A model generated the notes under the pieces. The model made no database searches. It saw only the letters and a program-made list of their open reading frames with translations, and was not told the DNA's origin. The position numbers and the translations under genes are program-made. From Deltaproteobacteria bacterium (GTDB lineage Bacteria > JAUYMQ01), in contig JAUYMQ010000084.1 of the NCBI GenBank assembly GCA_030698575.1, positions 1 to 7,905 on the forward strand: a DNA stretch of 7,905 bases, read 5' to 3'. This document shows positions 1 through 7,905 of the stretch, in pieces (the first letter of the stretch is position 1; each line of letters opens with the position of its first letter).

Positions 1-376
1 GGACGCCGCGGCGGTCCTGTTCCCGCTGGGCGAGGACGCGAACCCCTTCACGATGGGCGACGACCGCAACCCCGTGAACGCCTGGTTCTGGAAGGCCGAC
101 CGGGAGGAGCCCTTCGACGTGATCGCGCGGGGCTACAGCACGAGCCAGCGGCGGCCGGGCGGCGCGAGCGGCCTGGTCGCGCGGGCCGAGCACCGGCAGG
201 ACGCCTGGGTCGGTGTGTTCCAGCGCCCGCTCCGGCCTGCGCCCGGCGAATTCACGCACTTCGAGCCCGGCGCCACGGCGCGCATCGCGTTCGCGGTCTG
301 GGAAGGAAGCAACGCCGAGCGGGGCGGCCAGAAGGCGGTGTCCGGCGCCTTCCTCGATCTCGAGTTCGACGGCTAG
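1..376 (+). CDS. C-terminal part of a heme-b (gamma) subunit, ethylbenzene dehydrogenase / type II DMSO reductase group (partial)
   Basis: The reading frame is open from base 2 and ends at the TAG at 374-376; the start lies outside the window. About 124 residues are visible. The segments MGDDRNPVNAWFWKAD and IAFAVWEGSNAERGGQKAVS are characteristic of the heme-b subunits of ethylbenzene dehydrogenase, dimethylsulfide dehydrogenase, selenate and chlorate reductases. In that family the periplasmic gamma subunit carries one heme b and passes electrons between the molybdenum/iron-sulfur subunits and a cytochrome. The known EbdC axial ligands are a Met and a Lys about 100 residues apart, the Lys 13 residues from the C-terminus. 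Here the Lys at 332-334 is also 13 residues from the end, and the Met at 53-55 lies 93 residues before it, so both are plausible ligands. The catalytic subunits would lie upstream, so the substrate cannot be assigned. The LLM gene follows after 44 bases. Confidence 0.8.
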   Translation, partial: DAAAVLFPLGEDANPFTMGDDRNPVNAWFWKADREEPFDVIARGYSTSQRRPGGASGLVARAEHRQDAWVGVFQRPLRPAPGEFTHFEPGATARIAFAVWEGSNAERGGQKAVSGAFLDLEFDG

Positions 377-420: not shown

Positions 421-1455
421 ATGGGCAGCCCGGGCAGGAAGGAAATTCGCTACTGGAACATTCTCCAGCCGTTGCCGGCGCCCATCCTGATCGAGCTGGC
501 GAAGCAGGCCGAGGCTCAGGGGATCCACGGAAGCTTCGCGCCCCAGGTCTATGGCCCGCCCTTCCTTCCCCTGGCGGTGGCAGCCGGGGTCACCGACAGA
601 CTGCAGCTTGCGAGCGGCATCGCGATCGCCTCGGCCCGCAGCCCCTTCGAGACCGCGATGGCGGCCATCGACATGGATCGCATCTCGATGGGGCGCTTCA
701 CGCTCGGCATTGGCGCCAGCGTGCTCGCCTGGTCGCGCGGCGTGTTCGGCGCGCCCGAGCACAAGCCCCTCGCGCACCTGCGCGAGACCGTGGCCGCCGT
801 GCGGCACATCGTAAGCGGCGCGGGAGGGCATCTCGAGCCCTTCGAGGGCACCTACTACAAGGCCGACTTCACCCACTACCAGCCGCTGGAACCGCCGCTG
901 CGAACCGAGATTCCCATCTGGGTGGCCGCGCTGCGCGCGCCCATGGTGCGCCTTGCCGCCGAGATCGGCGACGGCGTGATCGGGCATCCGATGTGGTCGG
1001 CCGACTGGGCCGTGAATCACATGCAGCCCGAGCTGGAGGCGGCGCTGGCGAAGGCGGGCCGGAAGCGAGAGGACATCGAGGTGAACCTCTGGCCCTGGGC
1101 TGCGCCCAACCCGGACGAGGCGGAGGCCATCGAGGACTCACGCGCCACGATGGCTTTCTACGGAGGCGTGAAGCAGTACGAGTCGTTCTTCGAGGCGCAC
1201 GGCTTCCTCGACGTGGCGCGAAAACTCCAGGAAGGCGTGCAGCGCGGCGACTACCGGAGCGTGGCCCACCTCGTGCCCGACGAGATGGTGCGCGCCTTCG
1301 TCGCCGTGGGCGAGCCCGAGAAGGTGAAGGAGCAGGTGGGCCGCTACGCGTCCGTGGCCGACAGTCTTTGCATTGTCCCGCCGGTCTACGCGCTTCCGCC
1401 CGAGAAGGTCTTCCAGTACGTGAACGCCATCGCAGCGACGTTCTACGGCGGATAG
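421..1455 (+). CDS. LLM-class (luciferase-like) flavin- or F420-dependent oxidoreductase
   Basis: The product is 344 residues, the usual size of the bacterial luciferase-like TIM-barrel family. Family marks are GIAIASARSPFETAMAAIDM (residues 66-85), the following SMGRFTLGIGAS (89-100) at the usual SxGRFxLGxG position, the HLRETVAAVRHI helix (119-130), and a C-terminal segment with VGEPEKVKEQ. Members use FMN with oxygen, or F420 as a hydride carrier without oxygen; the sequence seen here does not settle which. The N-terminus and overall pattern resemble the F420-dependent group of actinobacterial and soil bacteria. The gene follows the heme-b subunit with an excellent ribosome binding site and ends only 9 bases from the stop of the convergent activase gene. 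Substrate unknown. No signal peptide is evident, so it is probably cytoplasmic. Confidence 0.85.
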   Translation: MGSPGRKEIRYWNILQPLPAPILIELAKQAEAQGIHGSFAPQVYGPPFLPLAVAAGVTDRLQLASGIAIASARSPFETAMAAIDMDRISMGRFTLGIGASVLAWSRGVFGAPEHKPLAHLRETVAAVRHIVSGAGGHLEPFEGTYYKADFTHYQPLEPPLRTEIPIWVAALRAPMVRLAAEIGDGVIGHPMWSADWAVNHMQPELEAALAKAGRKREDIEVNLWPWAAPNPDEAEAIEDSRATMAFYGGVKQYESFFEAHGFLDVARKLQEGVQRGDYRSVAHLVPDEMVRAFVAVGEPEKVKEQVGRYASVADSLCIVPPVYALPPEKVFQYVNAIAATFYGG

Positions 1456-1464
1456 CCGGCGTTA

Positions 1465-2487
1465 TCAGCTCTCCATATCCCGCCCGCCGTCCCCCTTCGG
1501 TTCCAGCCGGGTGCGGCCGGTGGCCAGGATGATCTCCGGATCGACGCCCGACCGTCGGGCGATTTCCTCCGAATGGCGGAGTTCCTCCTCGCTCATCAGC
1601 CTGGTTCCCTCGAAATCCCAGGTCATCCCCAGCCTCGCGTACTTGTCCGCCGCAAGATTGTTGAAGGCGCAAAGCTCCCAGCGCGTGACCACGTCGCCCA
1701 GGTGCCGGGCGATGAAGGCGCCGAGGCCGGCCAGGTTCTCGTCGCTGAAGGTGGCGCCGGGTATCAGCGGCGTGCGAATCCATAGCCGGCCGGGAAGCCC
1801 GCCTTCCCGTATTCCCCGGGAGAGCGAGATGAGATTGGAAAGGATCCTCTCATTGGAAACCCCCGTATGCCGGGCGTGCCTCCCGGAATCGATGTCCTTC
1901 AGATCGTAGAGGATCAGGTCGGCGTGCCGGGCCACCGAGTCGAGGGACCGGGCCGAGCACATGCCGGAGGTATCGATGGCCGTGTGGATGCGGAGCGAAC
2001 GGCAGCGTTCCAGGAAAGGCGCGACGAACCGGGCGCGAAGCGCGGGCTCACCGCCCGAAACGGTCACGCCCCCTTCAGAGGTCTCGAAGTAGCTCCGGTC
2101 CTTCAGGACCTCGCCGACGAGTTCGCGAAGCCCCCAGCGCCTCCCGAGGATTTCCAGGGCGGTCGAGGGGCATTGATCGGCGCACTCTCCGCAGGCCGTG
2201 CAGCGCGCGTGGTCGATCTCGATCTTGTCTTCAATTCGGCGGAGGGCGTCCTCGGGGCAGACCGCATCGCACAGGCGCGTGTTGAGGCACTTCCACGGGT
2301 GCCACACGAGTTGCGGCTTCGACACCAGCGCTTCGGGGTTGTGGCACCACCGGCAGGCAAGGCTGCAGCCCTTCAGGAAGACGGTCGTACGCAGGCCCGG
2401 GCCGTCCTCGGTGGACATGCGTTGAATGTTGAGGACCGTCGCGTAGGGTCCGGCCCCGGCCCCGTCCTTCTCACGCCCGGGCTGCAC
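1465..2487 (-). CDS. Glycyl radical enzyme activating protein (radical SAM, ferredoxin-like insert)
   Basis: The 340-residue product matches the pyruvate formate-lyase activase family in length and order. The N-terminal signature STEDGPGLRTTVFLKGC leads into the radical-SAM motif Cys41-x3-Cys45-x2-Cys48, which binds the SAM-cleaving [4Fe-4S] cluster. A ferredoxin-like insert follows at about residues 63-110, with Cys67, Cys73, Cys77-Pro and then Cys96, Cys99, Cys102, Cys106-Pro. The SAM-binding glycine motif TVSGGEPAL is at 142-150. The enzyme should use reduced ferredoxin or flavodoxin and SAM to abstract hydrogen from the radical glycine of its partner GRE, almost certainly the enzyme at 3745-6126. 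It is the last gene of the operon, 54 bases after the acyl-CoA dehydrogenase. The start is GTG. The second cysteine of the first ferredoxin motif is replaced by Thr70, leaving seven rather than eight insert cysteines. Confidence 0.95.
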   Translation of the reverse strand: MQPGREKDGAGAGPYATVLNIQRMSTEDGPGLRTTVFLKGCSLACRWCHNPEALVSKPQLVWHPWKCLNTRLCDAVCPEDALRRIEDKIEIDHARCTACGECADQCPSTALEILGRRWGLRELVGEVLKDRSYFETSEGGVTVSGGEPALRARFVAPFLERCRSLRIHTAIDTSGMCSARSLDSVARHADLILYDLKDIDSGRHARHTGVSNERILSNLISLSRGIREGGLPGRLWIRTPLIPGATFSDENLAGLGAFIARHLGDVVTRWELCAFNNLAADKYARLGMTWDFEGTRLMSEEELRHSEEIARRSGVDPEIILATGRTRLEPKGDGGRDMES

Positions 2488-2493
2488 CGTGAT

Positions 2494-2498
2494 CCTCC
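2494..2498 (-). promoter_or_regulatory. Ribosome binding site supporting the GTG start of the activase
   Basis: On the - strand, GGAGG lies 6 bases before the GTG at 2487-2485. This perfect core match supports the non-ATG start. The resulting N-terminus puts the conserved GRE-activase signature near residue 25, as is usual for the family. Confidence 0.7.
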
Positions 2499-2541
2499 GC
2501 TATAGCCGGCAGCGGCTCTCCCGCGCGAACGGCAGGGGAGG

Positions 2542-3717
2542 TCACCGCTCGGACGACGGGGCTTTCTGATTGAACCGCCTGCCGAACAGGATGCTGGCCA
2601 TCGTGATGCGGAGCATCTGGACCGTGCCGCCGGCCACTCTCCAGGCCAGTGCGTCGCGGTGCATCCTCTCCAGGGGGAATTCCTTGCTGTAGCCGTAGCC
2701 GCCCAGGATCTGCATGGCCCCGTCGGTGACCTCGGCGGCCATCTCGTTTGCGAAGCACTTCCCCATCGAAGATTCGTACATCGAGGGGAAGCCCTGCCCG
2801 GCGCCGGTGGCGGCGCGGTAGACGAGGAGGCGCGCCGCGTCCAGCTTCATGGCCATGTCGACGATCCGGAACTGGACATCCTGGAATTCGCAGATGGGCC
2901 GGCCGAACGCCTGGCGCTCAAGGGTGTAGGCCCTGGCCTCCTCCAGCGCCCCGCCCGCGATTCCGAGGCACATTGCGGCGTTGCCGCAGCGCTCGAGATC
3001 GAAGGTCGTCATCAGCTCGGCGAACCGCCCCGCTCCCAGGACCACGCTTTCCCCGGGAATCCCCACGTCCTTGAAGATCAGATCGCAGGAGGGCATGCCC
3101 CGGAGGCCCATGAATTCTTCCTGCCTTCCGAACGTGAATCCGGGCGCATCCTTCTGCAAGAGGACGGCGCCGATGCCCTTGTAACCGGGCACGTCGCCGA
3201 AGCGGCAGTAGACCATGTAGTGGCTGGCCTCCCCGCCGCCCGAAATGAACGTCTTGCGCCCGTTGAGGCGGAACCCGTCGCCGTCCTCCGTCAGCTTCGT
3301 TCTGAGCGACACCAGATCCGATCCCGCCTCCGGCTCGGTCATGCCGACCGAGACGCTGGCCTCACCCCTGCAGACCGCGGGCAGGACGGCGCGCTTCTGC
3401 GCGTCGGTGCCGAAGGCGTCGATCACCCTGACCGGACCCAGGTTCGATTCGAAGACCGGCGCGGCGATCATGGGGCTGAACTTCGCCAGTTCCTCGATGG
3501 CCAGGACGGCGGTGACGCCAGGTTGCCCGCCGCCCCCGTATTCGGGAGACAGCGTCATGCCCAGGAGCCCCAGGTCGGCGAACTTCTTCATCAGGTGCAG
3601 GGGGAACTCGCCGGTCTTCTCGGTCCGGGCCGCCAGCTCCCTGAACTTCTCGCGCTGGCCCATGGTGCGGATCGTCTCCACCAGGGCCCGTTCTTCCTCG
3701 TTCAGCGCGAAGTCCAT
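2542..3717 (-). CDS. Acyl-CoA dehydrogenase (isovaleryl-/long-chain-type catalytic base)
   Basis: The 391-residue product has the full acyl-CoA dehydrogenase layout: helical N-terminal domain, beta domain with GMTEPEAGSD (125-134), and C-terminal domain with RQAFGRPICEFQ (268-279) and QILGGYGYSKEFPLERMHRD (336-355), the FAD-binding and dimer region. It should oxidise an acyl-CoA to the 2,3-enoyl-CoA and pass electrons to ETF. Where medium- and short-chain enzymes carry the catalytic Glu (EGT motif), this protein has Gly363-Gly364-Thr365. Instead, Glu242 in FDLER aligns with the base of isovaleryl-CoA dehydrogenase (DLERLVLAGG), so a branched or bulky substrate is plausible. Its ATG is preceded by GGGAG with a 6-base spacer. 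It sits between the GRE gene (27-base gap) and the activase gene (54-base gap). Benzylsuccinyl-CoA-dehydrogenase-like activity is possible but not shown. Confidence 0.93.
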   Translation of the reverse strand: MDFALNEEERALVETIRTMGQREKFRELAARTEKTGEFPLHLMKKFADLGLLGMTLSPEYGGGGQPGVTAVLAIEELAKFSPMIAAPVFESNLGPVRVIDAFGTDAQKRAVLPAVCRGEASVSVGMTEPEAGSDLVSLRTKLTEDGDGFRLNGRKTFISGGGEASHYMVYCRFGDVPGYKGIGAVLLQKDAPGFTFGRQEEFMGLRGMPSCDLIFKDVGIPGESVVLGAGRFAELMTTFDLERCGNAAMCLGIAGGALEEARAYTLERQAFGRPICEFQDVQFRIVDMAMKLDAARLLVYRAATGAGQGFPSMYESSMGKCFANEMAAEVTDGAMQILGGYGYSKEFPLERMHRDALAWRVAGGTVQMLRITMASILFGRRFNQKAPSSER

Positions 3718-3744
3718 TCGGTTCTCCCGGCCGTCAGGAAAGGA

Positions 3745-6126
3745 TCAGCACTCGAACTCGGTGCGGCTGATGATCTCGTTCTGCGCGATCTCGCTCAGGC
3801 CCGTGAACAGCGCCGAGTAGCCGCTGACGCGCACCACCAGATCGCGGTGCTTCTCCGGGTGCGCCTGCGCTTCGCGGAGAACGGCGGAGTCGATCATGTT
3901 GAATTGCACCTGCACGCCGCCCTTCTTGAAGTAGGTTTTCAACAGGGCCCCTAGTGTTTCCGGGCGCAGCCGGACGGGGTTGAAGCGCATGTTGAGGTTC
4001 ACCCCGTTGTGGGCCCTCAGGAGCGGCAGCTTCGTGACCGAGTTCATGATCGCCGTGGGGCCGGTCGTTGCGCTGCCGTTCGAGGGGGTGATGCCGTTGC
4101 CCAGCACGTCGCCGGCGAAGCGCCCGTCCGGGCTCGCGCCCGCGAAGGCCCCCATGGCGATGTGGAAGCCGACGGAGAACACCCCGGGCCAGAAGGTGCC
4201 GCCCCGGTAATTCCGGTGCTCGAGCACCCGATCGCAAAAATGATCGAGCACTCTGGCCGCCATGGAATCCGCGCCGTCGTCGTCGTTGCCGTACTTCGGG
4301 ATCCGGTTCAGGAAGTAGGCCCGCCGGTCCCCGGCATCGTCCCAGTCATCCAGCAGCATCTCCGACAGCTCCTTCATCGTGACGACGCCCTCCTCGAAGA
4401 CCGCCTCTTTCACCGCATACAGGCTGTCCACGACGTTGGAGAAGCCGATGAGCTGCACGCCGGTGGAGTTATAGACCGCTCCACCTCGCGTCAGATCCAT
4501 TCCCTTCTCGAACGGCCCGTCGATCATCGCGGATGCGAAGGGGGAAGGAACCCGATCGGCGATAGCCTTGTCGAGGACGGCCATCCCCCGGGCCATCTGC
4601 CCCATGAAGTGCCTCACCTGCGCGTCGTAGGCGTTCCAGACGTCTTCGAAGGAGGAGAACGAACCCGGGTCGCCGGTGCTGAGACCCGATTGACTGCCGA
4701 AAATGCTGTCCATTCCATCGCTCAGGGCGAACTCGAGGCACTTCATTCCGCTGAACTGGACCGCGAACGTCGAGCCGAAACTCTTCCCCTGGGCATTGGG
4801 CTCCAAACACCCCACGACCCCGTAATCGCGCGCATCCTCGAGTGTGTGGCCGGCGCGCTGAAGCGATTCGACGATCACCTCGTCATTGAAAAGGTGGAGC
4901 GGCACGCCCGCCTTCGCGTACCGTACCGCCCTCAGGAAAAAATCGTCCGGCGTGCCGGGCCCCACGCGCACGCCGAAGTTGGGCTGAACGGTGCTCAGGG
5001 CGGCGAAAGCGTCGAGGCCGATATAACTCAGCTCGTTGGTGACGTCCTCGCCATCGGGTCCCATGCCGCCGACGGTGACGTTCTGCGTGGTCTTCCCTTC
5101 CACCCCTTCTCCCCCGGGGATGAACGCATCCTCGAGAATATTCCAGATCTCGTTCGTCTTCAGGAAGAGCATCGAGAGAAGCTCGCGGGCCCTGTCCGGC
5201 GTGATTGCGCCCGCTTGCCTGTCCGCCTCGTAGTAGGGGAAAAGGTGCTGATCGATGCGCCCCAGCGAGACCGAGTTGCCGCCCGATTCAATCTGGGCGA
5301 CCAGGTGGATGAAGTAGACGCACTGAACCGCCTCATGGAAGGTCCGCGCCGGATGCGCGGGGACCCGCCGGCACGTTTCGGCGATCGCGCGCAGTTCCTC
5401 CGCGCGCGCCGGATCGGGCTCCTCGCCGGCCATACGTTCGGCGACATCGGCATGGCGGTTGGCAAAGCGGATCGCCGCCCTGCAGGAGCGCGCGGCGGCA
5501 TCGTAGAAGCGGCCCTTCTCTCCCTCCCGATCCTTCGCCGAAAGCGCCGCGTACCGCTGTTCCGCGTCGCTCGCGATTCCTTCGAGCCCCGTCTTCAGGA
5601 TTCGGGAATGATCCATCGTGAAATGGCCGATGCCGTAGGTGATCTCCAGGACCATCGTGAAGACGTACTTGTCGATGTCTCGGGCGACGTCCTCCGGAAG
5701 AGCTTCCTCCAGATGGTCCTCGACGGTTCTGCCTCGCCAGAAGGGAAGGATGTCTTCCCGCAGCTCGCGTTGCTGCTCGGCCGTGATCTTCACATTCTGG
5801 AGTTCGCGCTGCCCGAAGCCTTCCATGTCCTTTTCGATCCACCGGCACTTGTTCTCGGGGAAGAACGGCGCGCCTTTGAGCCTGGAAGTGCGGCACCCCA
5901 CGATGAGCTCGTCGTCCCGGATGATCACGCTGATCTTCTCGATGACGTGCTCGAGGGCCAGGCTCATTCGCGTGAGCGGATGCCTATCCCAGTTCTCCGC
6001 CATGGACTGCGTGAAATAGCGCGCCCGCTCGACGCAGGCCTCTCTGGGCGCCTCGATGATGCGGCTCCTCAGGCGCTCCACGCGGTCCAACGAGGCGGAT
6101 CTTACGATCGGTTGCACGGCCGACAT
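3745..6126 (-). CDS. Glycyl radical enzyme of the pyruvate formate-lyase family, unassigned substrate (probable lyase/dehydratase)
   Basis: This 793-residue protein is full length; glycerol dehydratase and hydroxyproline dehydratase are close to 790. The PFL-like barrel covers roughly residues 12-660 and the glycine radical domain about 665-793. The radical site is RVSGYSALF with Gly769, 24 residues from the C-terminus. The thiyl site is YGVVGCLEP, with Cys440 and Glu442; this Cys-x-Glu pattern is typical of GRE dehydratases and decarboxylases rather than pyruvate formate-lyase. Other family marks are IESGGNSVSLGRIDQ (279-293), IPKYGNDDDGAD (609-620) and GASPDGRFAG (663-672). The GKxxGWHD-like stretch recalled for choline lyase and glycerol dehydratase is GKSFGSTFAVQF here (447-458), so the pocket differs. 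The enzyme is oxygen-labile once activated. AGGAG lies 8 bases before the ATG. A C-C, C-O or C-N lyase role cannot be separated from sequence alone. Confidence 0.95.
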   Translation of the reverse strand: MSAVQPIVRSASLDRVERLRSRIIEAPREACVERARYFTQSMAENWDRHPLTRMSLALEHVIEKISVIIRDDELIVGCRTSRLKGAPFFPENKCRWIEKDMEGFGQRELQNVKITAEQQRELREDILPFWRGRTVEDHLEEALPEDVARDIDKYVFTMVLEITYGIGHFTMDHSRILKTGLEGIASDAEQRYAALSAKDREGEKGRFYDAAARSCRAAIRFANRHADVAERMAGEEPDPARAEELRAIAETCRRVPAHPARTFHEAVQCVYFIHLVAQIESGGNSVSLGRIDQHLFPYYEADRQAGAITPDRARELLSMLFLKTNEIWNILEDAFIPGGEGVEGKTTQNVTVGGMGPDGEDVTNELSYIGLDAFAALSTVQPNFGVRVGPGTPDDFFLRAVRYAKAGVPLHLFNDEVIVESLQRAGHTLEDARDYGVVGCLEPNAQGKSFGSTFAVQFSGMKCLEFALSDGMDSIFGSQSGLSTGDPGSFSSFEDVWNAYDAQVRHFMGQMARGMAVLDKAIADRVPSPFASAMIDGPFEKGMDLTRGGAVYNSTGVQLIGFSNVVDSLYAVKEAVFEEGVVTMKELSEMLLDDWDDAGDRRAYFLNRIPKYGNDDDGADSMAARVLDHFCDRVLEHRNYRGGTFWPGVFSVGFHIAMGAFAGASPDGRFAGDVLGNGITPSNGSATTGPTAIMNSVTKLPLLRAHNGVNLNMRFNPVRLRPETLGALLKTYFKKGGVQVQFNMIDSAVLREAQAHPEKHRDLVVRVSGYSALFTGLSEIAQNEIISRTEFEC

Positions 6127-6211
6127 GGCTGCTTCTCCTGCCGAAGGTTTGATGGTCTCTTGATCTTCCCGGAACCCGCTTCCGGTTTCGCGCGCCAGGT
6201 CCCGGCGCGAA

Positions 6212-7039
6212 CTACACCCGGATGTCCATCTGCCCCAGGAGAATCCGGTCCCTGAGCGCCCTGGGCAGAAATCGATTCAGCTTGAGGAAGAACCGGCTCT
6301 TGAAGTCGATCTGGTTGCAGACAGCCGGGCGTTCGGACTCGATGATCCCGGCGATGACCGCCGCGGCCTGGCGCGGGGTGGGAGCGGTCCTGATCAGCTC
6401 CTTGTCACGCTGGATAAAGCGCCTCACACGCTCCCGGTAGGGTGATCCCTCGGGCGGAAGCACGTGGATCTTGGCGGCGAAATCTGTCGATACCTGCGCG
6501 GGCTGAACCAGCGACACCCTGATCCCGAACGGCTCCACCTCGTAGCGCATCGACAGGGCCAGTCCCTCGACGGCGAATTTGCTGGCGGAGTAGATCGATT
6601 CGAAAGGGAAGGGTATCTCTCCGACCAGCGACGAGACGGCGACCAGCTTCCCACTGCGCCTTTCACGCATCGCGGGAACGAACGCCTGGAAGATGGCGGC
6701 GGTGCCGATCACGTTGATCTCCATGCACCGCAGCGCGCCTTCCAGATCGATCTCCTCAAAGGGGCCGAAGAAGCCGATGCCGACGTTCGAGAGCACCGCG
6801 TCGACATGGCCGAACTTGCCAAGCACCTGATCCCTGAACCGGAGGATGCCCGGGCGGTCGCGGATATCCAGCACCTCCAGCAGCGATTCCGCGCGCATCT
6901 CGTCGAGCTCGGATTTCAGCGATCCGACGGCGCCCGCATCGATGTCGAAACCCGCTACGACGTTTCCGGATGCGGCCAGCAGCTTAGCCACTTCGCGTCC
7001 GATCCCCTGCGCCAGTCCCGTGATTACGACCACCTGCAT
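6212..7039 (-). CDS. Short-chain dehydrogenase/reductase (classical SDR)
   Basis: The 275-residue product is a classical SDR. The nucleotide-binding motif TGLAQGIG (7-14) is followed by Asp32 at the end of the second strand (GFDID), which favours NAD(H) over NADP(H). The structural motif SNVG (84-87) replaces the common NNAG. Asn109 (MEINVIGT), Ser137, Tyr150 and Lys154 (YSASK) form the complete catalytic tetrad. It would interconvert an alcohol and a ketone. The C-terminus, about residues 243-275, is rich in Phe, Leu, Arg and Lys and looks like an amphipathic tail, as in SDRs acting on lipids near membranes (inference). The ATG at 7039 has GAGGGG 8 bases upstream. It lies between the SCP2 gene (39-base gap) and the GRE gene (85-base gap), so it probably acts on the GRE substrate or product. 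Confidence 0.93.
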   Translation of the reverse strand: MQVVVITGLAQGIGREVAKLLAASGNVVAGFDIDAGAVGSLKSELDEMRAESLLEVLDIRDRPGILRFRDQVLGKFGHVDAVLSNVGIGFFGPFEEIDLEGALRCMEINVIGTAAIFQAFVPAMRERRSGKLVAVSSLVGEIPFPFESIYSASKFAVEGLALSMRYEVEPFGIRVSLVQPAQVSTDFAAKIHVLPPEGSPYRERVRRFIQRDKELIRTAPTPRQAAAVIAGIIESERPAVCNQIDFKSRFFLKLNRFLPRALRDRILLGQMDIRV

Positions 7040-7078
7040 GCTTCAAGCCCCTCGTCGATTGTCCATTCCGGTGACGCC

Positions 7079-7621
7079 TCACTTCCTGGTGAGGATCAAG
7101 TGCTCCAGGTTCATATCGCCCAGGACCACCGGAAACGTCTTGAAGGCGGATCTCACCACCGGCAGGAGCTTCAGCATCGCGACGATGTTTCCGCCCTGCT
7201 TGACCTTGCCCGTCGCCACGGACGTGATCGGATTTTCGTGACCATGCCAGAATCGGTGGGAGTGATCGGCCGACTGCCTGGACCAGACGTCGGGCTTCAG
7301 ATCGCACTCACCGAGGTAGAAGGCGCCGTGATAGCCGGGCTTGGAAGGGGGATTCTTGAGATCGATGGTGATCTCGGAATCGGGGTCCGTGTAGATGAAC
7401 TTGATGATGAGATTGGCCCGGGACATCTTGGGGCCAATCTTGTCGTCCTGCAAAATACGGCTCAGGAAAGCATCGTAAATGCGGTAAAGCTGGTCCGCGT
7501 CCCGGTAGTACTCGCCCATTTTGAATCCGTTCTGCCGAACAAACCGCGTATGAACATCATTGACGATCTCCGCCATGCGTGCCACCCGAAAATCGCGATG
7601 TTGGGAGAGGGAGCCGTGCAT
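7079..7621 (-). CDS. SCP2 sterol-binding domain-like protein
   Basis: The product is up to 180 residues. The central and C-terminal part (about residues 68-178) has the layout of a stand-alone SCP2 / sterol-carrier domain: strands such as ANLIIKFIY and SEITIDLKN, then DVWSRQSADHSHRFWHG, and the family-like helix segment TSVATGKVKQGGNIVAMLKL (133-152) that corresponds to the FxTGKLKxKGN region. Such domains bind lipids, sterols or acyl-CoAs in a hydrophobic tunnel. No signal peptide is seen. The given start is the most upstream ATG, but it has no clear ribosome binding site. The internal ATG at 7576 (Met16) follows GGGTGG by 5 bases and may be the true start. It is the first gene of the probable GRE operon and could carry or present the hydrophobic substrate. 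Confidence 0.7.
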   Translation of the reverse strand: MHGSLSQHRDFRVARMAEIVNDVHTRFVRQNGFKMGEYYRDADQLYRIYDAFLSRILQDDKIGPKMSRANLIIKFIYTDPDSEITIDLKNPPSKPGYHGAFYLGECDLKPDVWSRQSADHSHRFWHGHENPITSVATGKVKQGGNIVAMLKLLPVVRSAFKTFPVVLGDMNLEHLILTRK

Positions 7622-7730: not shown

Positions 7731-7905
7731 CTAGGGGCGGTCCTGATCGGCGTCACCCTTGGTGACGAACCAGTTTGCGCCGTCGGTGAAGAAGGCGGGA
7801 TCGAGATCGGGGCGGTTCGGGCGGACGAAGAAGGTCATGGGCGAGTCGCGGACCACGAAGCCGAATTTCCGGAGATGCTCTTCCGCCGTGGGATTCAGCA
7901 CCACG
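7731..7905 (-). CDS. C-terminal end of an unidentified protein, possibly a GNAT-family acetyltransferase (partial)
   Basis: A - strand frame is open from the right edge and stops at the TAG at 7733-7731, giving 57 residues; its start is outside the window. The visible tail reads HLRKFGFVVRDSPMTFFVRP, then DPAFFTDGANWFVTKGDADQ. A helix followed by LGF/FGF and a strand, with an aromatic NWF(V/L)T-G-D-D ending, resembles the C-termini of some GNAT N-acyltransferases. This rests on recall of the pattern, not an alignment. It is co-directional with the GRE operon, but the 109-base gap leaves open whether it is co-transcribed. Confidence 0.6.
   Translation of the reverse strand, partial: VVLNPTAEEHLRKFGFVVRDSPMTFFVRPNRPDLDPAFFTDGANWFVTKGDADQDRP

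Follow-up and report, generated by a model that had tools for sequence, protein, structure and literature searches.

The DNA examined here, hereafter the window, is a 7,905-bp stretch from a Deltaproteobacteria bacterium and constitutes one complete contig (JAUYMQ010000084.1) of a 4.1-Mb host assembly in 653 contigs (GCA_030698575.1). Its central feature is an operon encoding a glycyl radical enzyme (GRE), which, on balance, we are inclined to view as a compact version of a widespread and apparently undescribed catabolic cluster centered on a new glycyl radical eliminase clade. All five open reading frames (ORFs) of the operon are on the minus strand and are separated by gaps of 39, 85, 27, and 54 bp, exactly as reported in an initial reading of the letters made without database searches (the sequence-only reading). 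The first encodes an SCP2-fold carrier protein of 146 amino acids (7079..7519, within an ORF that extends to 7621), followed by a 275-amino-acid classical short-chain dehydrogenase/reductase (SDR) oxidoreductase (6212..7039; adh_short, 153 bits), a 793-amino-acid eliminase-type GRE (3745..6126; PFL-like domain, 644 bits; Gly_radical domain, 91 bits), a 391-amino-acid acyl-CoA dehydrogenase (ACAD) with N-terminal, middle, and C-terminal Pfam domains (2542..3717), and a 340-amino-acid GRE-activating radical SAM enzyme bearing an extra 4Fe-4S domain (1465..2487; TIGR02494, 292 bits vs. a cut-off of 174). The same five families had been named in the sequence-only reading; hidden Markov model scans recovered four of them, while SCP2 was recognized through the fold of an AlphaFold model. 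Since the window is a whole contig, the operon is truncated at its upstream end. A single GRE and a single above-cut-off GRE activase are encoded in the host genome, both located in the window, which ties the two together as a pair. The cognate radical SAM activase that accompanies GRE eliminases is encoded within the same operon as its presumed partner.

The SCP2 protein scored 14.7 bits against its Pfam family, which is below the gathering cut-off of 21.3. Its AlphaFold model (AF2; mean pLDDT 84.7) was built from an alignment of 13 sequences, of which one row was wrong (L040, 20% identity, mis-set frame) and the other 12 were sound. The top fold matches of this model were SCP-2 proteins, the best being the SCP-2-like domain in human peroxisomal multifunctional enzyme 2 (MFE-2) with Z-scores of 12.1-12.5, and a comparison with the SCP-2L structure 8af3 aligned 112 residues with a Z-score of 12.5 and a root-mean-square deviation of 2.6. 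Fold comparison is the stronger test and outweighs the sub-threshold Pfam score, so the modeled protein can be assigned a predicted SCP2 fold. MFE-2 likewise pairs an SDR with an SCP2 fold, but the proteins encoded here are separate, bacterial, and GRE-linked, with ~26% identity to MFE-2 over the SCP2 part. The SCP2 homologues encoded in related clusters are 61-72% identical to the window protein and begin at the motif MGxYYRDA, which argues for a start at 7519 rather than 7621. Judging from this alignment, the gene most likely spans 7079-7519 and not 7079-7621.

The window GRE contains both the glycyl radical site (G769) and a CXE motif (C440-L441-E442), and these are kept across its clade. 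The CXE motif is a feature of GRE eliminases (PMC8473560). Among solved structures, the best relatives were the glycerol dehydratase 1r8w (548 bits) and a "glycyl radical protein," 9rco (514 bits), each with 37-38% identity (34-38% across 1r8w, 9rco, and 5i2a); no paper describing 9rco was found in the open-licence literature. Choline trimethylamine-lyase, hydroxyproline dehydratase, sulfopropanediol dehydratase, and isethionate sulfite-lyase are likewise CXE-motif GRE eliminases, but their genes have different neighbors, and the window GRE missed every NCBIfam equivalog cut-off by a wide margin. For the three of these enzymes with a curated model, it scored about half of the required value or less (CutC, 458/1050 bits; HypD, 534/1100; sulfopropanediol dehydratase, 546/1000), and its isethionate lyase match was 347-355 bits. 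In a maximum likelihood tree, the window GRE fell within a 100/100 clade of 21 sequences, which the 52%-identical L004 joins with 100/100 support, whereas the glycerol/propanediol dehydratases (1r8w and 5i2a) formed a separate 100/100 group. The sequence-only reading would have failed had the GRE belonged to a clade with a known substrate, but it lies outside every such clade among those tested. The catalytic residues H164, S282, C433, E435, and G763 (1r8w numbering) are all retained in the clade, corresponding to H168, S285, C440, E442, and G769 in the window GRE. In contrast, the pocket residues of 1r8w are replaced in all clade members scored (H281N, Y339T, D447F, and W445S), yielding a clade signature of N284, T347, and F454 in window numbering, and the four-residue combination was absent from the other GREs examined. 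With its catalytic residues kept and its pocket residues exchanged, the window GRE should therefore be an eliminase, but one whose substrate differs and whose pocket is altered in shape and less polar. A 52%-identical GRE that was checked as an outgroup (L055; genome G024, 2514-4871, plus strand) has the same pocket signature, adjoins a sulfatase, and lies outside the cluster; a sister function is possible for it. Genomes G035 and G024 contain ~10 and ~8 GRE matches, respectively, the majority with no assigned function.

These same data bear upon one alternative, namely a conventional 1,2-diol dehydratase for glycerol, propane-1,2-diol, or a short diol that happens to reside in an unusual neighborhood. 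The B12-independent glycerol and propane-1,2-diol dehydratases are indeed its best structural matches through 1r8w and the related 9rco, and they share its family, CXE motif, radical SAM activase, and the equivalents of H164, S282, C433, and E435; aldehyde oxidoreductases are also encoded in several of the related clusters. We nonetheless judge this explanation quite unlikely, as the identity to the reference enzymes is only 34-38%, the glycerol/propane-1,2-diol pocket (H281, D447, and an aromatic residue at 339) is occupied by N, F, and T in all clade members scored with W445 exchanged as well, and the reference enzymes are confined to their own clade. Moreover, glycerol and propanediol need no ACAD, SCP2, or CoA-transferase, whereas the GRE of the window neighbors SDR, ACAD, and SCP2 genes and those of its relatives are clustered with CoA-activation genes.

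A scan of 84,980 species' genomes identified 20 loci with close GRE relatives, and taxon searches with fetched neighborhoods contributed a further 22, for a total of 42 besides the window. Their GREs are 60-74% identical to that of the window and originate from Chloroflexota, Thermodesulfobacteriota, Binatota, Actinomycetota, and others. The 20 scan records are named as Dehalococcoidia, Ardenticatenales, Desulfobacteraceae, Desulfosudis, Syntrophaceae, Deltaproteobacteria, Binatota, and Actinomycetota, and since all 20 are metagenome-assembled genomes, no cultured host was found among them. Counting only loci with enough flanking sequence, scoring presence by blastp thresholds, and bearing in mind that the loci are not statistically independent, the GRE was linked to an SDR in 35/37 loci, an extended SDR in 30/34, an ACAD in 27/29, and SCP2 in 20/24, as well as to CoA-transferase subunits A (28/34) and B (28/33), MmgE/PrpD (24/30), and a PadR regulator (23/32). 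The usual order, with identities assigned by Pfam, is PadR, extended SDR, SDR, GRE, CoA-transferase A, CoA-transferase B, MmgE/PrpD, ACAD, and SCP2; an activase is located near the GRE in only a few of the 42 loci. The window represents a compact form of this arrangement in which the ACAD directly follows the GRE without the usual CoA-transferase A/B and MmgE/PrpD genes in between, and L122 and L141 share this compact SDR-GRE-ACAD order. There were exceptions, including a GRE without SDR, ACAD, or SCP2 (L046), a locus with SDR and SCP2 but no ACAD (L142), and one with CoA-transferase, MmgE, and ACAD but no SDR (L032). Because the same families surround this GRE in dozens of genomes spread over several phyla, the gene set is not a product of chance. 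The recurrence of SDR, ACAD, and SCP2 around close GRE homologues, which the sequence-only reading had singled out for checking, is therefore real, and the case is stronger than first stated: the cluster is conserved in at least four phyla, and its GREs form a clade of their own.

That reading had also suggested looking beyond the contig for CoA-ligase or CoA-transferase genes, and the fuller clusters seen in other genomes do indeed contain either a CoA-transferase or an AMP-forming ligase. The catalytic Glu motif (ESG) of CoA-transferase B is retained in 26/28 homologues. L034, L049, and L037 lack both CoA-transferase and MmgE and encode an AMP-forming ligase instead, accompanied by an aldehyde:ferredoxin oxidoreductase (AOR) in L034 and an aldehyde dehydrogenase in L049. 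Overall, seven loci encode AOR homologues and three encode aldehyde dehydrogenases, and in L114 the AOR gene is positioned immediately after the ACAD. From L114 and the loci combining an AMP ligase with aldehyde oxidoreductases, we read a shared logic of GRE, carbonyl oxidation, CoA activation, and ACAD. We rejected an IpdAB-type steroid-ring hydrolase as the identity of the CoA-transferase pair, given that its nearest solved relative is glutaconate CoA-transferase with 192 bits vs. ~76 bits for the presumed IpdA-like entries, and the kept catalytic Glu motif of subunit B further counters such an assignment. In every locus with an intact GctAB-like CoA-transferase and sufficient flanking sequence (L032-L051 and others), MmgE/PrpD lies beside it.

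A GRE encoded alongside CoA-transferase and ACAD genes is reminiscent of the benzylsuccinate, alkylsuccinate, and limonenylsuccinate synthase loci, and these two partners are typical of the bss/bbs-type and limonene (PMC12583861) pathways. The GRE could conceivably add hydrocarbons to fumarate or cleave C-C bonds, as in bss/ass/lss loci. We find this extremely improbable, as its matches to TutD (256 bits) and MasD (264 bits) contrast with 548 bits for glycerol dehydratase 1r8w, and even 8iof, which is named "benzylsuccinate synthase alpha subunit," reached 381 bits, also far under 1r8w. Furthermore, the GRE has the CXE motif of the eliminase type, and no BssB/C-like gene is present among the window ORFs, in agreement with the absence of small extra subunits reported in the sequence-only reading. 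The limonene GRE (PMC12583861) is a fumarate-adding enzyme and does not belong to this clade.

In the ACAD, the canonical C-terminal catalytic Glu is replaced by Gly in all clade members scored (AGGT for YEGT), while the Glu within a D[LIV]ER motif is kept; we take the latter to match the position at which isovaleryl-CoA and long-chain dehydrogenases have their alternative base. The ACAD appears to use an isovaleryl/long-chain-type catalytic Glu, a position that would be in keeping with an acyl chain that is branched or bulky. The SDR and 17 homologues keep the NAD motif and the S-Y-K catalytic residues, and its nearest solved structure is 17beta-HSD1, a weak match. The nearest solved relatives of the SDR are steroid dehydrogenases, although weakly, which is one of several observations compatible with a hydrocarbon or steroid pathway, in which the alcohol processed by the SDR, GRE, and ACAD comes from hydroxylation of a hydrocarbon by an ethylbenzene-dehydrogenase-like molybdenum enzyme. 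At window positions 2-376 on the plus strand, cut by the contig edge, is the C-terminal part of an ethylbenzene-dehydrogenase-like gamma (heme b) subunit of the type II DMSO-reductase family; the GREs of L037 and L046 have EbdA-like alpha genes nearby; and the host genome contains four full-length and one partial EbdA-like alpha subunits (G000 contigs C330, C54, C102, and C145), which suggests a possible hydrocarbon or steroid degrader. However, such a context was found in only 3/43 loci with no enzyme of this kind detected near the other clusters, and the DMSO-reductase-family genes of the window run on the other strand, toward the GRE operon. This scenario seems unlikely to us, and it is a more specific form of the explanation that we favor rather than a contradiction of it.

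In the pathway that we propose, the activase would set the radical on Gly769 of the GRE, after which Glu442 and His168 would help a leaving group, most likely water, to depart from the neighboring carbon to generate a carbonyl product. This mechanism is carried over from known eliminases by way of the conserved residues, from which we infer dehydration as the probable reaction. The carbonyl may then be converted to an acid by the AOR or aldehyde dehydrogenase present in some clusters, and the acid to a CoA ester by the clustered CoA-transferase or AMP-forming ligase, an activity that would be encoded elsewhere in the organism of the window. The ACAD would desaturate the CoA ester, the SDRs could convert an alcohol to a ketone or aldehyde, or the reverse, on either side of the GRE step, and SCP2 may serve as a carrier of the hydrophobic intermediate, either free or CoA-bound. 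There is good support for the class of chemistry, a radical elimination that feeds into oxidation of a CoA ester, while we infer the order of the steps and the hydrophobic nature of the substrate. The proposal of the sequence-only reading, breakdown of a hydrophobic acyl compound by radical cleavage coupled to CoA-ester oxidation, is partly supported: the conserved gene set and the CoA-activation genes found elsewhere agree with it, whereas the C-C cleavage it allowed for is disfavored by a CXE motif that points to elimination.

Several observations weigh against the proposed pathway. The window operon itself includes no CoA-activating or aldehyde-oxidizing enzyme, and a search of the host genome found nothing closer than a CoA-transferase A of 33% identity, an MmgE/PrpD of 31%, and AORs of 29-41%. 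As only such distant relatives exist in a genome of 91.6% completeness, the window form seems to lack CoA-transferase A and MmgE/PrpD, rather than encoding them on another contig, and CoA activation would therefore have to be supplied from elsewhere in this organism. In addition, the proposed steps assign no role to MmgE/PrpD, and the loss of D447, H281, and the aromatic residue at 339 implies that the substrate may be something other than a plain 1,2-diol. It could also be argued that the cluster is biosynthetic or lipid-modifying, as SCP2 and SDRs are known in lipid metabolism too and one L034 neighbor has a CER1-like domain. This seems very unlikely, since the ACAD, CoA-transferase/ligase, aldehyde oxidoreductases, PadR regulator, and MFS transporters are more in keeping with an inducible catabolic function.

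The active site of the oxygen-sensitive GRE in this conserved cluster differs from that of every relative examined, which makes an undescribed anaerobic route for an oily compound probable. More specifically, we think it probable that the GRE is a new eliminase with a substrate off the known list, operating with SCP2 hand-over in an undescribed anaerobic pathway for hydrophobic compounds in mostly uncultured bacteria of at least four phyla. No description of such a cluster (a GRE with MmgE, SCP2, ACAD, and CoA-transferase) was found in the open-licence literature, an absence that is weak evidence at that coverage. Text co-occurrence of "glycyl radical" and "mmge" was discarded, as the latter was the tool name "mmgenome" and not MmgE. 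Earlier new GRE substrates, such as choline, hydroxyproline, and isethionate, each exposed a hidden anaerobic carbon metabolism; the fixed and distinctive active site of this clade, together with its consistent neighborhood across phyla, turns a "pyruvate formate lyase-like" annotation into a concrete and testable pathway.

Two further genes flank the operon. A luciferase-like (LLM) oxidoreductase is encoded at window positions 421-1455 on the plus strand (closest to TIGR03617) and is convergent with the GRE operon, such that their stop codons are ~10 bp apart. The end of an upstream ORF without a confident family match is present at 7731-7904 on the minus strand and is cut by the contig edge. 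Lastly, the RpoB of the window's host was closest to that of G035 (70% identity), followed by Desulfobacterota/Binatota records at 64-67%, in a comparison in which several Chloroflexota rows were not RpoB.
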